From Caldisphaera sp. (lineage in GTDB: Archaea; Thermoproteota; Thermoprotei_A; Sulfolobales; Acidilobaceae): a DNA stretch of 33,617 nucleotides. The notes beneath the pieces are model-generated. The model did no database searches. It was not told the DNA's origin and worked only from the letters and a program-made list of their open reading frames with translations. Made by a program: the position numbers and the translations under genes. The stretch lies in the NCBI RefSeq assembly GCF_023256325.1, contig NZ_JAGDXI010000028.1, positions 3,198 to 36,814 on the forward strand, in the 5' to 3' direction. Shown here piece by piece: positions 713 through 12,001 of the stretch (the stretch's first letter is position 1; every line of letters begins with the position of its first letter).

Positions 713-755
713 ACTCCACTGACTCGTCCTCAATGGGCGGGTGGTGGGGGCCTAG
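713..755 (+). other. 43-nt insertion in 23S helix 69 loop, probable micro-intron
   Basis: Conserved 23S sequence reads GTAACTCTGACC in this loop (about E. coli 1911-1921). Here GTAA ends at 712 and CTCTGACC resumes at 756. The 43 nt between fold into a hairpin: CTCCAC (714-719) with GTGGGG, and ACTCGTCC with GGGCGGGT, closing a short TCAAT loop, with some G-U pairs. The flanking exons can pair as the normal helix 69 stem (GGGT with ACCC). The loop contacts tRNA and the decoding centre, so I infer that the insert is removed by the archaeal splicing endonuclease and ligase. I could not draw a perfect bulge-helix-bulge by eye. Confidence 0.75.
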
Positions 756-770
756 CTCTGACCCTCTTAA

Positions 771-1027: not shown

Positions 1028-1068
1028 TGGGCTAGTGGTGGGTATGGTTCCCACCCTAGCCTCTCGAT
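1028..1068 (+). other. 41-nt insertion in 23S rRNA at about E. coli 1951, probable micro-intron
   Basis: The conserved GCCGGGTAAGTTCCGGC is split after GGGTA (1027) and resumes at AGTTCC (1069). The insert is a near-perfect hairpin: GGCTAG (1030-1035) with CTAGCC (1056-1061) and GGTGGG with CCCACC, one bulged T, and a loop of about 7 nt. This is the same site as the intron of Desulfurococcus mobilis that encodes I-DmoI, but here no room exists for a protein gene. The flanking exons pair as the normal helix 71 (GCCGG with CCGGC), so the insert sits at the tip of an essential helix and is inferred to be spliced out. Confidence 0.8.
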
Positions 1069-1691
1069 AGTTCCGGCGTGCATGAATGGATCAACGAGGT
1101 CCCCACTGTCCCGGCCCGGGGCCCGGCGAACCCACCTCCGGGTGCAGAGTCCTGGGACCCCCGACGGGGCGAGAAGACCCTGTGGAGCTTTACTGCAGCC
1201 CGTCGTTGGGGTGCGGGAGGGGGTGCATAGTGTAGGTGGGAGCAATGAAGCGCGGTCTCCGGGCCGCGCGGATGCGCCAATGAAACACCACCCACTCTCT
1301 CCCGCACCCCTAACCTCGGGTAGCACTCGGGGGACAGCGGCGGGTGGGCAGTTCGGCTGGGGCGGCACACCCCTGAAAGGATATCAGGGGTGCCCAAAGC
1401 TCGGCTCAGGCGGGTCAGAACTCCGCCGTAGAGGGTAAGGCCAAATGCCGGGCTGACTGCGCCCTTGAACGCAAGGGGCGCAGGGGGGAAACCCGGGCCT
1501 AACGAACGCTCGTGCCCCCACCAGTGGGGGCCGGGCATGACAGAAAAGTTACCCCAGGAGTAACCGGCTCGTCGCGGGTGAGAGTTCCCATCGACCCCGC
1601 GGTTTGGTACCCAGACGTCGTCTCTTCCCATCCTGGGGGTGCAGCAGCCCCCAAGGGTGGGGCTGCCCGCCCATTAAAGGGGAACGTGAGA

Positions 1692-4849: not shown

Positions 4850-5437
4850 ATGATAGATGTTGGAGTACAGGCACCTGAATTTAAATCTAGGGCTTATTTC
4901 CCTGCAGAAAATAAGGTTAAAGAAATAAAACTTAGCGATTATAAAGGAAAATGGGTTATACTAACATTCCATCCAGGAGACTTTACATTTGTATGTGCAA
5001 CAGACTTAGAGGCATTCCAGGCACATTATGAAAAGTTTAAGGAAAACAATGCTGAAATACTAGGTATTAGCACTGATTCAGTATATTCGCATAAAGTTTG
5101 GGTAGAAACAAGCCCGAGAGTTAGCAAAGTTAAATTCCCCTTAGTTGACGACATTAAAAAAGAAATTTCATCAGCTTATGGATTCTTGAATCCAACAAGC
5201 GGTATGACTAGAAGGGGAACAGTAATAATAAATCCAGATGGCATAGTTGAGTATGTTTCCGTATTTAATGATAGGCTTGGCAAAGATGTCCCACACATAT
5301 ATAATGCATTTATAAACCTAAAATATCTGTATGAACATCCACCAAAACCAGAAGAATTCGATATAATAGCAGCCAACAAGGGAGAAGGGTTCCAATCTAT
5401 AAGGATAAGAATACCTGATAGCATTGGAAAACTATAA
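4850..5437 (+). CDS. Peroxiredoxin, AhpC/Prx6 type, single cysteine
   Basis: A thiol peroxidase that reduces H2O2 and organic hydroperoxides. The peroxidatic site is in HPGDFTFVC (C49 from the chosen ATG), with the threonine two turns upstream and the conserved arginine in TRRGTVI. The C-terminal domain (about 150-195) is the long arm typical of Prx6/AhpC enzymes. No second cysteine exists anywhere in the protein, so it should act as a 1-Cys enzyme needing an outside thiol. The ATG at 4850 has GGTGA at 4840-4844, the ribosome-binding element used by several genes here; TTG 4838 and GTG 4841 in the same frame are possible, and a TATA-like TTTATAC at 4812-4818 would fit a start at 4841. Next to Mrp on the same strand. 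Confidence 0.93.
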   Translation: MIDVGVQAPEFKSRAYFPAENKVKEIKLSDYKGKWVILTFHPGDFTFVCATDLEAFQAHYEKFKENNAEILGISTDSVYSHKVWVETSPRVSKVKFPLVDDIKKEISSAYGFLNPTSGMTRRGTVIINPDGIVEYVSVFNDRLGKDVPHIYNAFINLKYLYEHPPKPEEFDIIAANKGEGFQSIRIRIPDSIGKL

Positions 5438-8652: not shown

Positions 8653-10095
8653 TTAACCTTTTGTTACACCTATAGGTCTCATCCTAGCAACTAACTTAGC
8701 TATTCCTACAGAGGCTGCTGTTTCAGCTACATTATCTACATTTTTATATGCCTCGGGCATTTCTTCAATTACGGTTGAAACATTACTTGCCTTTAAGTAT
8801 ATACCTTTCTTATTTAAATCATCAACAACATCTTTATAGCTTTTCTCCTTCTTAGCAGATGTCCTGCTGAGTTGTCTACCTGCCCCATGAGGTGCAGTAA
8901 ACCATGATTTAACACCTGTCTCAATTCCAGCTAATATGTAACTTGCTGTTCCCATACTTCCTGGTATTAATACTGGTTGCCCATAATCTCTATATTTAGC
9001 AGGAATTTCAGGACTACCTGGAGGGAATGCCCTGGTTGCTCCTTTTCTATGAACTACCACTTTTTTCTTTTTGCCATCTATTTCGTACTCCTCTATTTTT
9101 GCTATATTATGGGCTACATCATAAACTAAATTCATTTCTAAGTTTTCTGGATCTGTATGAAATACGTGAGCGAAGCTTTCTCTAGTCCAATGCATTATAA
9201 TTTGTCTATTGGCCCAAGCATAGTTTGCTGCAGATGCCATAGCCCTTGAATAATCCTGTGCTTCTGGAGAATTATATGGTATGCTTGCAAGTTCTCTGTC
9301 CGGAGGTATTGTATTATATCTTCTCATAGCCCTTTCCATTATTTGCAAATAATCGCTTGCAACTTGATGTCCTAATCCTCTACTCCCTGTATGTATCATT
9401 ATCGTAACCTGATTTTCAAATATACCATATGCTTTTGCAAGCCTTTCATCAAAAACTTTATCGACATACTGAACTTCCAAAAAATGATTTCCACTGCCTA
9501 ATGTTCCAAGTTCATTAGACCCTCTTTTTCTTGCAGAATTGCTTACCTTTGTAGCGTCAGCAAGCTTCCATGCACCGTTTTCTTCTATAAATTCAATATC
9601 TTTTTCCCATCCATAACCTTTTTCAACAGCCCATTTAGCTCCATAATTTAATACTTCTGTTAGTTCATTATTTGTCAACTTTAGTTTTCCAGTACTTCCA
9701 AGACCGCTTGGAACATTTTCATAAATTAAATTGACAAGATCTTTAATCTTCGGCATTACATCTTTTAAAGTTAAATTTGTTTTTATCAATCTAACTCCAC
9801 AATTTATATCATAGCCGACTCCACCAGGGCTTATTACTCCTCCTTCATCGATAGCCATAGCTGCTACTCCCCCTATCGGGAAACCATAGCCCTGATGACC
9901 ATCTGGCATAACCAAACTATACTTTTGTATACCTTGGAGGCATGCAACATTCATTGATTGCTTCAATGTTTGATCTTGTTTCATTTTTTCTATTAATATA
10001 TCATCAGCATAAATTACTGATGGTACTCTCATACAACCATTTCTTTCTATAATCCATGTGTTGTTTGCTATTTTTCTGGGTTCTATTTCCTGCAT
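8653..10095 (-). CDS. rtcB: tRNA/RNA-splicing ligase RtcB
   Basis: A GTP- and Mn-dependent RNA ligase that joins 2',3'-cyclic phosphate and 5'-OH ends left by the archaeal splicing endonuclease. Numbered from ATG 10095, the metal ligands are C99 (DINCGVR), H204 (GSGNHFLE), H235 (HTGSRGLGH) and H329 (DVAHN), and H403 in APHGAGR is the residue that becomes guanylylated; spacing matches Pyrococcus RtcB closely. The protein is full length with no intein. ATG 10095 is preferred over an upstream GTG at 10107 because GGTGGT lies directly before it and the ligand numbering fits. In this organism the enzyme would be needed for intron-bearing tRNAs and for the interrupted 23S rRNA in this window. Transcribed toward uL3 and divergent from tRNA-His. 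Confidence 0.97.
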   Translation of the reverse strand: MQEIEPRKIANNTWIIERNGCMRVPSVIYADDILIEKMKQDQTLKQSMNVACLQGIQKYSLVMPDGHQGYGFPIGGVAAMAIDEGGVISPGGVGYDINCGVRLIKTNLTLKDVMPKIKDLVNLIYENVPSGLGSTGKLKLTNNELTEVLNYGAKWAVEKGYGWEKDIEFIEENGAWKLADATKVSNSARKRGSNELGTLGSGNHFLEVQYVDKVFDERLAKAYGIFENQVTIMIHTGSRGLGHQVASDYLQIMERAMRRYNTIPPDRELASIPYNSPEAQDYSRAMASAANYAWANRQIIMHWTRESFAHVFHTDPENLEMNLVYDVAHNIAKIEEYEIDGKKKKVVVHRKGATRAFPPGSPEIPAKYRDYGQPVLIPGSMGTASYILAGIETGVKSWFTAPHGAGRQLSRTSAKKEKSYKDVVDDLNKKGIYLKASNVSTVIEEMPEAYKNVDNVAETAASVGIAKLVARMRPIGVTKG

Positions 10096-10233
10096 TTTTA
10101 CCACCACTAAATATAATCTAATTAAAGCTTTAGAACATTATTTTTTATTTTTTAATATATTAATTAAATTAAAGGAAAACAATTTAATAAACCTTGTTAC
10201 CACATACAATTCCTGGGCCCGATCAGATTCATG

Positions 10234-10400: not shown

Positions 10401-10793
10401 ATGGGTAAAAAGATGGGTGAAACTATAAATAAAGCGATTATAAAGGTTGTAATTAGGGTAGAGGATCTTTATCTTAAAATTCCATATTCCATAGAAAACG
10501 AATCTATGGAAAACAGTTTAGAAGAGTTATCTTCACTATTACAGTATGATCAGAAAAAAGATTTTATAAGAAGGCCGTATAGTGGGCTTGATTATGAAGC
10601 TAAGCTTCTTTCAGACTTGAGCAAGGCATTAAGAATAAGAATGGAGTTAAATAAAACATTAAATGTATCTGGAATTGAATATTTCAGTAAAAGATTAGAG
10701 GAGTTTTTGGAAAAAGTTAGGTATTCATTAGGCTACAATCCCCATATACCATTGAACTTAAACGAAAGATCAAGGCCAAACATTAAAATATAA
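10401..10793 (+). CDS. Hypothetical protein, 130 residues
   Basis: I do not recognise a family. The product is a charged, soluble, mostly helical-looking protein with no signal peptide, membrane segment or cysteines. The second half (about 70-110) looks like an amphipathic helix pair, and the tail is rich in Asn, Arg and Pro. The frame is open from ATG 10401 (a second ATG at 10413), and a TATA-like GTTTAATGG lies about 25 nt upstream, suggesting a leaderless mRNA. The stop codon overlaps the proposed promoter of the C/D box RNA that follows. Likely a real gene because codon use matches its neighbours and no other feature occupies the space. Confidence 0.7.
   Translation: MGKKMGETINKAIIKVVIRVEDLYLKIPYSIENESMENSLEELSSLLQYDQKKDFIRRPYSGLDYEAKLLSDLSKALRIRMELNKTLNVSGIEYFSKRLEEFLEKVRYSLGYNPHIPLNLNERSRPNIKI
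10785..10792 (+). promoter_or_regulatory. Possible TATA box for the C/D box sRNA
   Basis: An AAATATAA-like stretch at the very end of the upstream gene is about 27-34 nt before the predicted 5' end of the C/D box RNA, the right distance for an archaeal promoter. A second A+T-rich stretch at 10804-10811 is too close to the RNA. Confidence 0.35.
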
Positions 10794-10819: not shown

Positions 10820-10885
10820 CCGACCAATGAAGTTAATAAGAGGGTCGACTGATATTTGATGATTGTTGGAACTGCTGAGGGTCGG
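10820..10885 (+). ncRNA. C/D box small guide RNA
   Basis: A 66-nt RNA with every part of the archaeal C/D box design: terminal stem CCGACC (10820-10825) with GGTCGG (10880-10885); box C ATGAAGT (10827-10833, two changes from RTGATGA); box D' CTGA (10849-10852); box C' TTGATGA (10856-10862); box D CTGA (10875-10878). The D guide spacer is exactly 12 nt (10863-10874). The D' guide (10837-10847) is complementary to 23S rRNA 759-769 (ten Watson-Crick pairs and one G-U), and the base five nucleotides before D' pairs with C762, equal to E. coli C1920. It should direct 2'-O-methylation there with fibrillarin, Nop5 and L7Ae. I found no target for the D guide in this window. It ends 3 nt before the ATG of the next gene. 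Confidence 0.85.
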
Positions 10886-10888
10886 TAA

Positions 10889-12001
10889 ATGATTAACATA
10901 GGTGTTTTGGGAATAGGAAATGTAGGAAAAAGAGCGGCCTTTTTATTAAAAAGAGAAGGGTTTAATGTAACCCTTTTTGATTATAACGAAGATATCTTGA
11001 AAAATACTGCAAAAGAACTTAACTTAAATTACAAAAAAGTTAATGCATTAAACAAAAATGAAGTTATGTCATCATTGTCGAATATAGATCTTGTAGTAAC
11101 GTCTCTACCAGGTAGCGTCGCACATAAAGCATTAAAAAACTTAGTGGAATCAGGGAAAAACGTTGTTGATGTCTCATTTTTCCCTGAAGACCCTTCTGAT
11201 ATTGGAGAAATTGCTGAAAAAGAAGGATTATCTGTTTTGCTAGATGCTGGTGTTGCACCTGGGTTATCAAACATGTTAATTTCTTATGCAAAAAATGAAA
11301 TAGGAGAAATTAATAGAGGGGTAATCTATGTCGGAGGTATTACTGAAAAACCAGATCCTCCATTAGGAATAATAGCAAGCTGGAATACAATGGATCTAAT
11401 AGATGAATATAGAAGAAAGGCCAGATTTATTTCAAATAGAAAAATTATGGAAATTGATCCGTTAAAGAGTGAGAAAGGAAAAATATATGTAAAAGGAGTA
11501 GGAGAACTTGAATATTTTCCAACTGACGGCTTAAGATCACTATTAAAAACTTTTAATAATTTAGAGTACTTAGTAGAATATACTCTAAGATGGCCAGGCC
11601 ACATTGAATTTATGGAAGGACTTAATAAACTTGGATTTTTAGATCATAAAAAAATTAAAATGAACAACGCAGAAATTTATGCAGATGAATTTTTAAGCTA
11701 TATTATTTCTAATTATAAACCAAATTTAAAAGATATTGTTGTATTAGTGGTAGAAGCGTTTACTCAAAATAAAGGAATAAGGTTCACTCAAATAACTAAA
11801 CCCGAAAATGAGTTTACAGCTATGTCAAGAGTAACTGGGAGCTTTCTATCTTATTCAGCGATAGAATTTATAAAAGGAAAGATAAAGAGAAGTGGATTAA
11901 TATATCCCGAAGAACTCGGAGAAGAAAATATAGGTAAAGAGATTATAGAAATGATGGCTAATGATAGTATGAATATAAACAAAGAGATTATAGTTAAATA
12001 A
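10889..12001 (+). CDS. Saccharopine dehydrogenase-like oxidoreductase
   Basis: A 370-residue NAD(P)-dependent oxidoreductase of the saccharopine dehydrogenase / lysine 6-dehydrogenase superfamily. The Rossmann motif is GVLGIGNVGKRAA at residues 5-17, followed by the acidic end of strand two (LFDYN). The middle has LLDAGVAPGLSNML (about 116-129), characteristic of this family, and WPGHIEFM near 230. Substrate cannot be set from sequence; no other lysine-metabolism gene is adjacent. The ATG lies 3 nt after the closing stem of the C/D box RNA, so the leader either contains that RNA or is trimmed from it. The last 8 nt overlap the convergent helicase gene. Confidence 0.85.
   Translation: MINIGVLGIGNVGKRAAFLLKREGFNVTLFDYNEDILKNTAKELNLNYKKVNALNKNEVMSSLSNIDLVVTSLPGSVAHKALKNLVESGKNVVDVSFFPEDPSDIGEIAEKEGLSVLLDAGVAPGLSNMLISYAKNEIGEINRGVIYVGGITEKPDPPLGIIASWNTMDLIDEYRRKARFISNRKIMEIDPLKSEKGKIYVKGVGELEYFPTDGLRSLLKTFNNLEYLVEYTLRWPGHIEFMEGLNKLGFLDHKKIKMNNAEIYADEFLSYIISNYKPNLKDIVVLVVEAFTQNKGIRFTQITKPENEFTAMSRVTGSFLSYSAIEFIKGKIKRSGLIYPEELGEENIGKEIIEMMANDSMNINKEIIVK

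Follow-up and report, generated by a model that had tools for sequence, protein, structure and literature searches.

The window analysed here, a 33,617-nt stretch of the Caldisphaera sp. genome, contains a gene for a small RNA (sRNA) of the archaeal C/D box type and, about 9 kb away, part of a 23S rRNA gene interrupted by introns. The distance between the two is similar in a genome of the same genus, G003. The sRNA gene lies between two open reading frames and has the following parts.

10401-10793: reading frame of 130 amino acids with no Pfam match, upstream neighbour of the sRNA
10820-10885, plus strand: C/D box sRNA gene, 66 nt, bounded by a terminal stem
10820-10825 and 10880-10885, plus strand: the two halves of the terminal stem, CCGACC and GGUCGG, as read from the sequence
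10827-10833, plus strand: C box AUGAAGU, degenerate, with 5 of the 7 bases of RUGAUGA
10834-10848, plus strand: D' guide, in which 10837-10847 pair with 23S 759-769; its +5 base is 10844
10849-10852, plus strand: D' box CUGA, as read from the sequence
10856-10862, plus strand: C' box UUGAUGA, as read from the sequence; TGATG is kept in 6 of 6 aligned copies
10863-10874, plus strand: D guide UUGUUGGAACUG, which pairs with 23S 1069-1078 in helix 71; its +5 base is 10870
10875-10878, plus strand: D box CUGA, as read from the sequence
10889-12001: saccharopine-dehydrogenase-like gene, downstream neighbour of the sRNA

An archaeal C/D box sRNA was defined as an RNA of ~50-70 nt with boxes C (RUGAUGA), D' (CUGA), C' (UGAUGA) and D (CUGA). 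In 10820-10885 the boxes stand in the order C, D', C', D, and all are good except the degenerate C box. The C box AUGAAG is shared with same-genus G003, whereas other families have the canonical TGATGA; as D box, G003 and G001 have CAGA and UAGA, respectively. The terminal stem and the k-turn are conserved in relatives, since compensatory changes keep the stem paired in G003 (CCAACC/GGUUGG) and the k-turn in G001 (AUGAUA with UAGA). The predicted fold is better than that of most shuffled sequences (z -2.35), and a search of Rfam at the gathering threshold did not call the sRNA. Its 3' end lies 3 nt ahead of the ATG of the saccharopine-dehydrogenase-like gene (10879-10889). The same gene also lies downstream of the sRNA in G001, G003, G013 and G078, and throughout family f1 the sRNA keeps its place in the leader of the dehydrogenase gene; because it adjoins the ATG and has the same downstream gene in relatives, it may be cut out of that leader. 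A gene for an RtcB ligase is found nearby at 8653-10107, beside tRNA-His. RtcB is the type of ligase that joins tRNA and rRNA exons, and its closeness to the sRNA is probably due to chance.

The 23S rRNA gene contains three introns within 40 nt of mature rRNA around the sites with which the two guides pair.

713-755, plus strand: intron 1, after E. coli position 1913; central helix 707-710 (GGGU) with 750-753 (GCCU), bulges AA/A and AG/C
756-769, plus strand: 23S micro-exon of 14 nt, E. coli 1914-1927; it contains the D' target, with C762 = C1920
770-1002, plus strand: intron 2, after E. coli position 1927; central helix 764-767 (CUCU) with 997-1000 (GGAG), bulges UA/A and GA/A
1028-1068, plus strand: intron 3, 41 nt, after E. 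coli position 1952; central helix 1022-1025 (CGGG) with 1063-1066 (CUCG)
1069-1078, plus strand: target of the D guide in helix 71, with U1072 = E. coli U1956

The junctions were set from the spliced 23S of intronless relatives, and a bulge-helix-bulge motif was taken as a central helix of 4 bp flanked by 3-nt bulges, one at each junction. All the introns at the three sites, in the 17 genomes fully read, have this motif: the four-base central helix always forms, and the bulges are split two and one. In eight genomes the intron half of the intron 2 helix is GGAG, AGAG or GGGG, and it always pairs with the exon CUCU. The original prediction that the D' target lies in a micro-exon flanked by two introns holds, except that the exon is 14 nt by the bulge-helix-bulge geometry and not 15 nt; since exchanging A770 for A1003 leaves the sequence unchanged, 756-770 is an alternative reading. 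The third intron, which lies between the D' and D targets, was overlooked in that prediction, as were the D guide and its U1956 target.

Three further features of the rRNA region were observed. An N-run is present within the 23S just ahead of the window start, and the 16S gene upstream of the window (L001 1-1450) carries several AT-rich insertions, which are probably introns; a reading frame there ends before the 16S sequence. In addition, the helix 69/71 bases of the window (1069-1090; C1914-U1915 context, G1960, U1963 region) are unlike those of same-genus G001 and G003 and resemble those of other families, a difference possibly brought about by gene conversion or intron homing.

A guide was taken to be the stretch of ~12 nt adjoining D' or D on the 5' side that is complementary to rRNA across the +5 base, with at least 9 consecutive Watson-Crick pairs. 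The D' guide, 5'-UAAGAGGGUCGA-3' (10837-10848, followed directly by the D' box), forms 11 contiguous pairs with 23S 759-769, ten consecutive Watson-Crick pairs and one G-U: 10837-A769, 10838-U768, 10839-U767, 10840-C766, 10841-U765, 10842-C764, 10843-C763, 10844-C762, 10845-A761, 10846-G760 and the wobble 10847-U759, with A10848 unpaired opposite C758. G10844, the fifth base before D', faces C762, which corresponds to C1920 in an alignment to E. coli MG1655 rrlB. Direct reading of the pairs, this alignment and the conserved register described below thus bear out both the pairing and the target base that had been predicted. When guides were shuffled, only 8 of 1500 matched the spliced 23S (3,072 nt, anywhere) equally well (P ~0.005), and CTGACNCTCTNA is present once in the 1.52-Mb genome. 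A better-matched target, which would have spoken against the prediction, was sought in the rRNA, where the 5' part of 23S includes a 10-base assembly gap; no other site with at least 8 Watson-Crick pairs around the +5 base was found, leaving 23S 759-769 as the only good rRNA site for the D' guide.

The match of the D guide is less distinctive. UUGUUGGAACUG forms a duplex with AGUUCCGGC(G) in helix 71, with its +5 base 10870 opposite U1072. Its 10 pairs include 3 G-U, so that alone it falls short of the strict definition of a guide, and 28% of shuffled sequences match equally well somewhere in the whole 23S, which is not significant. Within 100 nt of C1920, however, the match has P ~0.03, and C1920 and U1956 are 36 nt apart in mature, spliced 23S, an arrangement typical of double guides. 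Furthermore, guide base -9 is U in G001, G003, G013 and G030, where rRNA position 1960 is A, and C in relatives in which position 1960 is G; as judged from the sequences, this matched change may have happened just once, in family f1. In the window, U at -9 stands opposite G1960 as a wobble, and across the order the D guide is often mismatched at G1954.

A DNA search found the sRNA in two genomes of the same genus. A sequence model made from six sRNA copies was then used to search the Thermoproteota order to which Sulfolobaceae and Desulfurococcaceae belong; its matches span at least 9 families. Exactly two bases separate GGGTC from the D' box in 69 of the 70 matches read out, a count that includes one match that is not an sRNA (G070) and G206 twice, and that is partly built in because the model itself contained the two-base spacing. 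This spacing fixes the +5 position on C1920. It stays constant while the D' box varies (CTGA, ATGA, TTGA, GTGA), and the +5 base is Watson-Crick paired with C1920 in every genome compared. An unbiased pattern that allowed a spacing of 0-5 bases also recovered copies in G001, G003, G049, G077 and G039. Conservation in the same register settles C1920 as the site to which the D' guide is directed. Two candidates were rejected as sRNAs: the G070 match (L087), which has neither a C nor a D box, and a match at G000:C8:106438, whose boxes are not properly placed. Metallosphaera yellowstonensis MK1 (L226) has two near-identical sRNA copies, at 320-341 and 5040-5061, 4.7 kb apart.

In the GTDB collection as a whole, the pattern TGATGANAAGAGGGTCNNNTGA was found in 118 stretches. 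Of the 80 matches listed, 77 come from archaea, among them Thermoplasmatota and Altiarchaeota, which lie outside this order. In these two groups the C1920 guide is joined to other D guides, so that it is either old, with its partner exchanged, or has arisen more than once. Several Thermoplasmatota sRNAs (L176, L183, L190, L207, L211, L244 and others) combine the C1920 D' guide with the D guide CCCTATGAGTG. This D guide is complementary to ACTCATAGGG, the anticodon loop of intron-bearing pre-tRNA-Met(CAU), as found at L285, L286, L287, L291 and L296, with C34 at the +5 position. Three further pairs extend into the pre-tRNA intron, and CCCTATGAGTG would therefore prefer the unspliced tRNA. Guides of the sR49 type for tRNA-Met Cm34 have been described (PMC2584109); the Thermoplasmatota sRNAs join such a C34 guide to the C1920 guide, whereas the sRNA of the window has a helix 71 guide in its place.

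The gene, its boxes, the pairings, their register and their conservation are observed directly, and we conclude with considerable confidence that the element at 10820-10885 is an archaeal C/D box sRNA with two guides, which directs 2'-O-methylation of both C1920 and U1956. For the D' guide taken by itself, the sequences indicate that it very probably directs a methyl onto C1920. The sRNA, presumably transcribed, would be bound by L7Ae, Nop5 and fibrillarin, and a fibrillarin gene was found in the source genome. The D' guide would then pair with the 3' strand of helix 69, leading to methylation of C1920, and the D guide with helix 71, leading to methylation of U1956. Since the two sites are 36 nt apart in mature 23S, on the side turned towards the small subunit, the likely role is to assist the folding and stabilising of the bridge region.

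A double guide to nearby sites need not be a methylation guide, since such RNAs have been proposed to act as chaperones (PMC4644070). The degenerate boxes C and D of this genus would suit an RNA that merely helps helices 69-71 to fold, with no methylation. In contrast, D' and C' have canonical sequences, a Watson-Crick pair joins the +5 base to C1920 in every genome compared, and the distance to D' stays constant even where the D' box itself varies; a pure chaperone would need neither feature. Thus, we regard a role as folding chaperone only as unlikely.

The introns raise the question of how a methylation guide would act on the precursor. The D' footprint (759-769) includes 764-767, the exon half of the intron 2 central helix, together with bulge bases of that motif, so that both structures cannot coexist, and guide binding should, as one may fairly infer from the modelled structures, compete with splicing of intron 2. 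In a stronger form, the guide and the splicing endonuclease would also compete for intron 2, making methylation and splicing ordered steps. The covariation that keeps the central pairing of intron 2 in eight genomes is consistent with this. However, the argument is one of structure, the guide and the endonuclease may act at different times, and the sequence shows no adaptation to the introns. We therefore consider such an ordering improbable. It is equally doubtful that, with introns at 1913, 1927 and 1952, the sRNP would time splicing, methylation and guide release preceding the endonuclease.

The original prediction went in the opposite direction and suggested that the guide could hold the micro-exon open during splicing or assembly. 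Taken as its main role, the sRNA would keep the micro-exon open while introns 1 and 2 leave. The D' target does lie entirely within the 14-nt exon, the D target begins at the 3' junction of intron 3, and G059 and G155 combine introns at the same three sites with the sRNA. Nevertheless, at least seven relatives (G003, G013, G030, G052, G091, G118 and G206) have the sRNA without any of the three introns, and both guides are present in the sRNAs of these relatives, including that of the same genus (G003); G016, which carries intron 2, gave no match to the sRNA. Accordingly, the sRNA does not depend on the introns, the tie between the two that is expected of a splicing-assisting RNA was not found, and the presence or absence of introns near the targets varies independently of the sRNA. 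Moreover, the D' pairing is confined to exon bases and stops at the exon ends, so that the guide cannot distinguish spliced from unspliced RNA, and it covers 764-767, which the intron 2 motif requires. The idea that the precursor exposes the D' target gained no support from folding either, because opening the target at 37 C costs 7.8 kcal/mol in the precursor versus 3.2 kcal/mol in mature rRNA. The suggestion was thus abandoned, and a main role in splicing appears very improbable. Finally, pairing of the D' guide with the mRNA of the downstream gene, with 14 contiguous pairs (3 G-U) at 10935-10948 and a duplex of -17.3 kcal/mol versus -18.1 kcal/mol for 23S at 37 C, was rejected as its real purpose and can be given hardly any credence, because that site is altered in G003 while the guide and the 23S site are kept, and the 23S duplex is more stable at 75 C (-8.7 vs -4.9 kcal/mol).

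As a methylation guide, the sRNA is best read as an ordinary, well-conserved double guide. According to a study and a review (PMC4644070, PMC7994747), described archaeal double-guide C/D sRNAs have the same box order, size and +5 rule, sites less than 100 nt apart, and targets in helices 68-71, a hotspot of predicted archaeal 2'-O-methylation. Unlike them, the sRNA has a degenerate C box in this genus, and the two main texts contain no mention of C1920. In the archaeal literature searched, neither the D' guide sequence (in the main texts) nor an experimental report of Cm1920 in any archaeon was found. The guide for Haloarcula Gm1950 (E. coli G1909) and Pyrococcus sR41 direct ribose methylation within the helix 69 stem, at another nucleotide on the opposite strand. 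In Haloarcula the methyl detected in helix 69 is this Gm and not one at C1920, and thus the C1920 mark is not universal in archaea (PMC2584109).

Outside archaea, many bacteria and plant organelles place the same methyl with a protein enzyme. TlyA methylates 23S C1920 in bacteria (PMC12805891), as the original prediction had stated, and Cm1920 in helix 69 is also the product predicted here; TlyA, however, uses no guide RNA, is no homologue of the sRNA, and in its type II form also methylates 16S C1409 (PMC12805891, PMC5778110). In the source genome, the best match to the TlyA family covered 46 positions and scored 22.7 bits, below the curated cut-off of 185.8. The Arabidopsis equivalents of E. 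coli C1920 are Cm1935 in chloroplasts and Cm2216 in mitochondria. The chloroplast methyl is unaffected in fibrillarin mutants and was therefore ascribed to a protein enzyme; those authors were aware of no counterpart among the other rRNAs in their comparison (PMC8053127). The sRNA is thus best regarded as an RNA-guided counterpart of the 23S activity of TlyA.

C1920 lies in helix 69, a bridge to the small subunit. The guide for it is widespread in an order of Thermoproteota and also occurs in Thermoplasmatota and Altiarchaeota. In the window, the unusual arrangement of introns creates a naturally occurring situation where the same bases are required by both a guide RNA and the splicing endonuclease. 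Should the archaeal mark prove real, two unrelated routes, one of them RNA-guided, would lead to this ribose methyl, and its purpose could then be tested by comparing the two systems.
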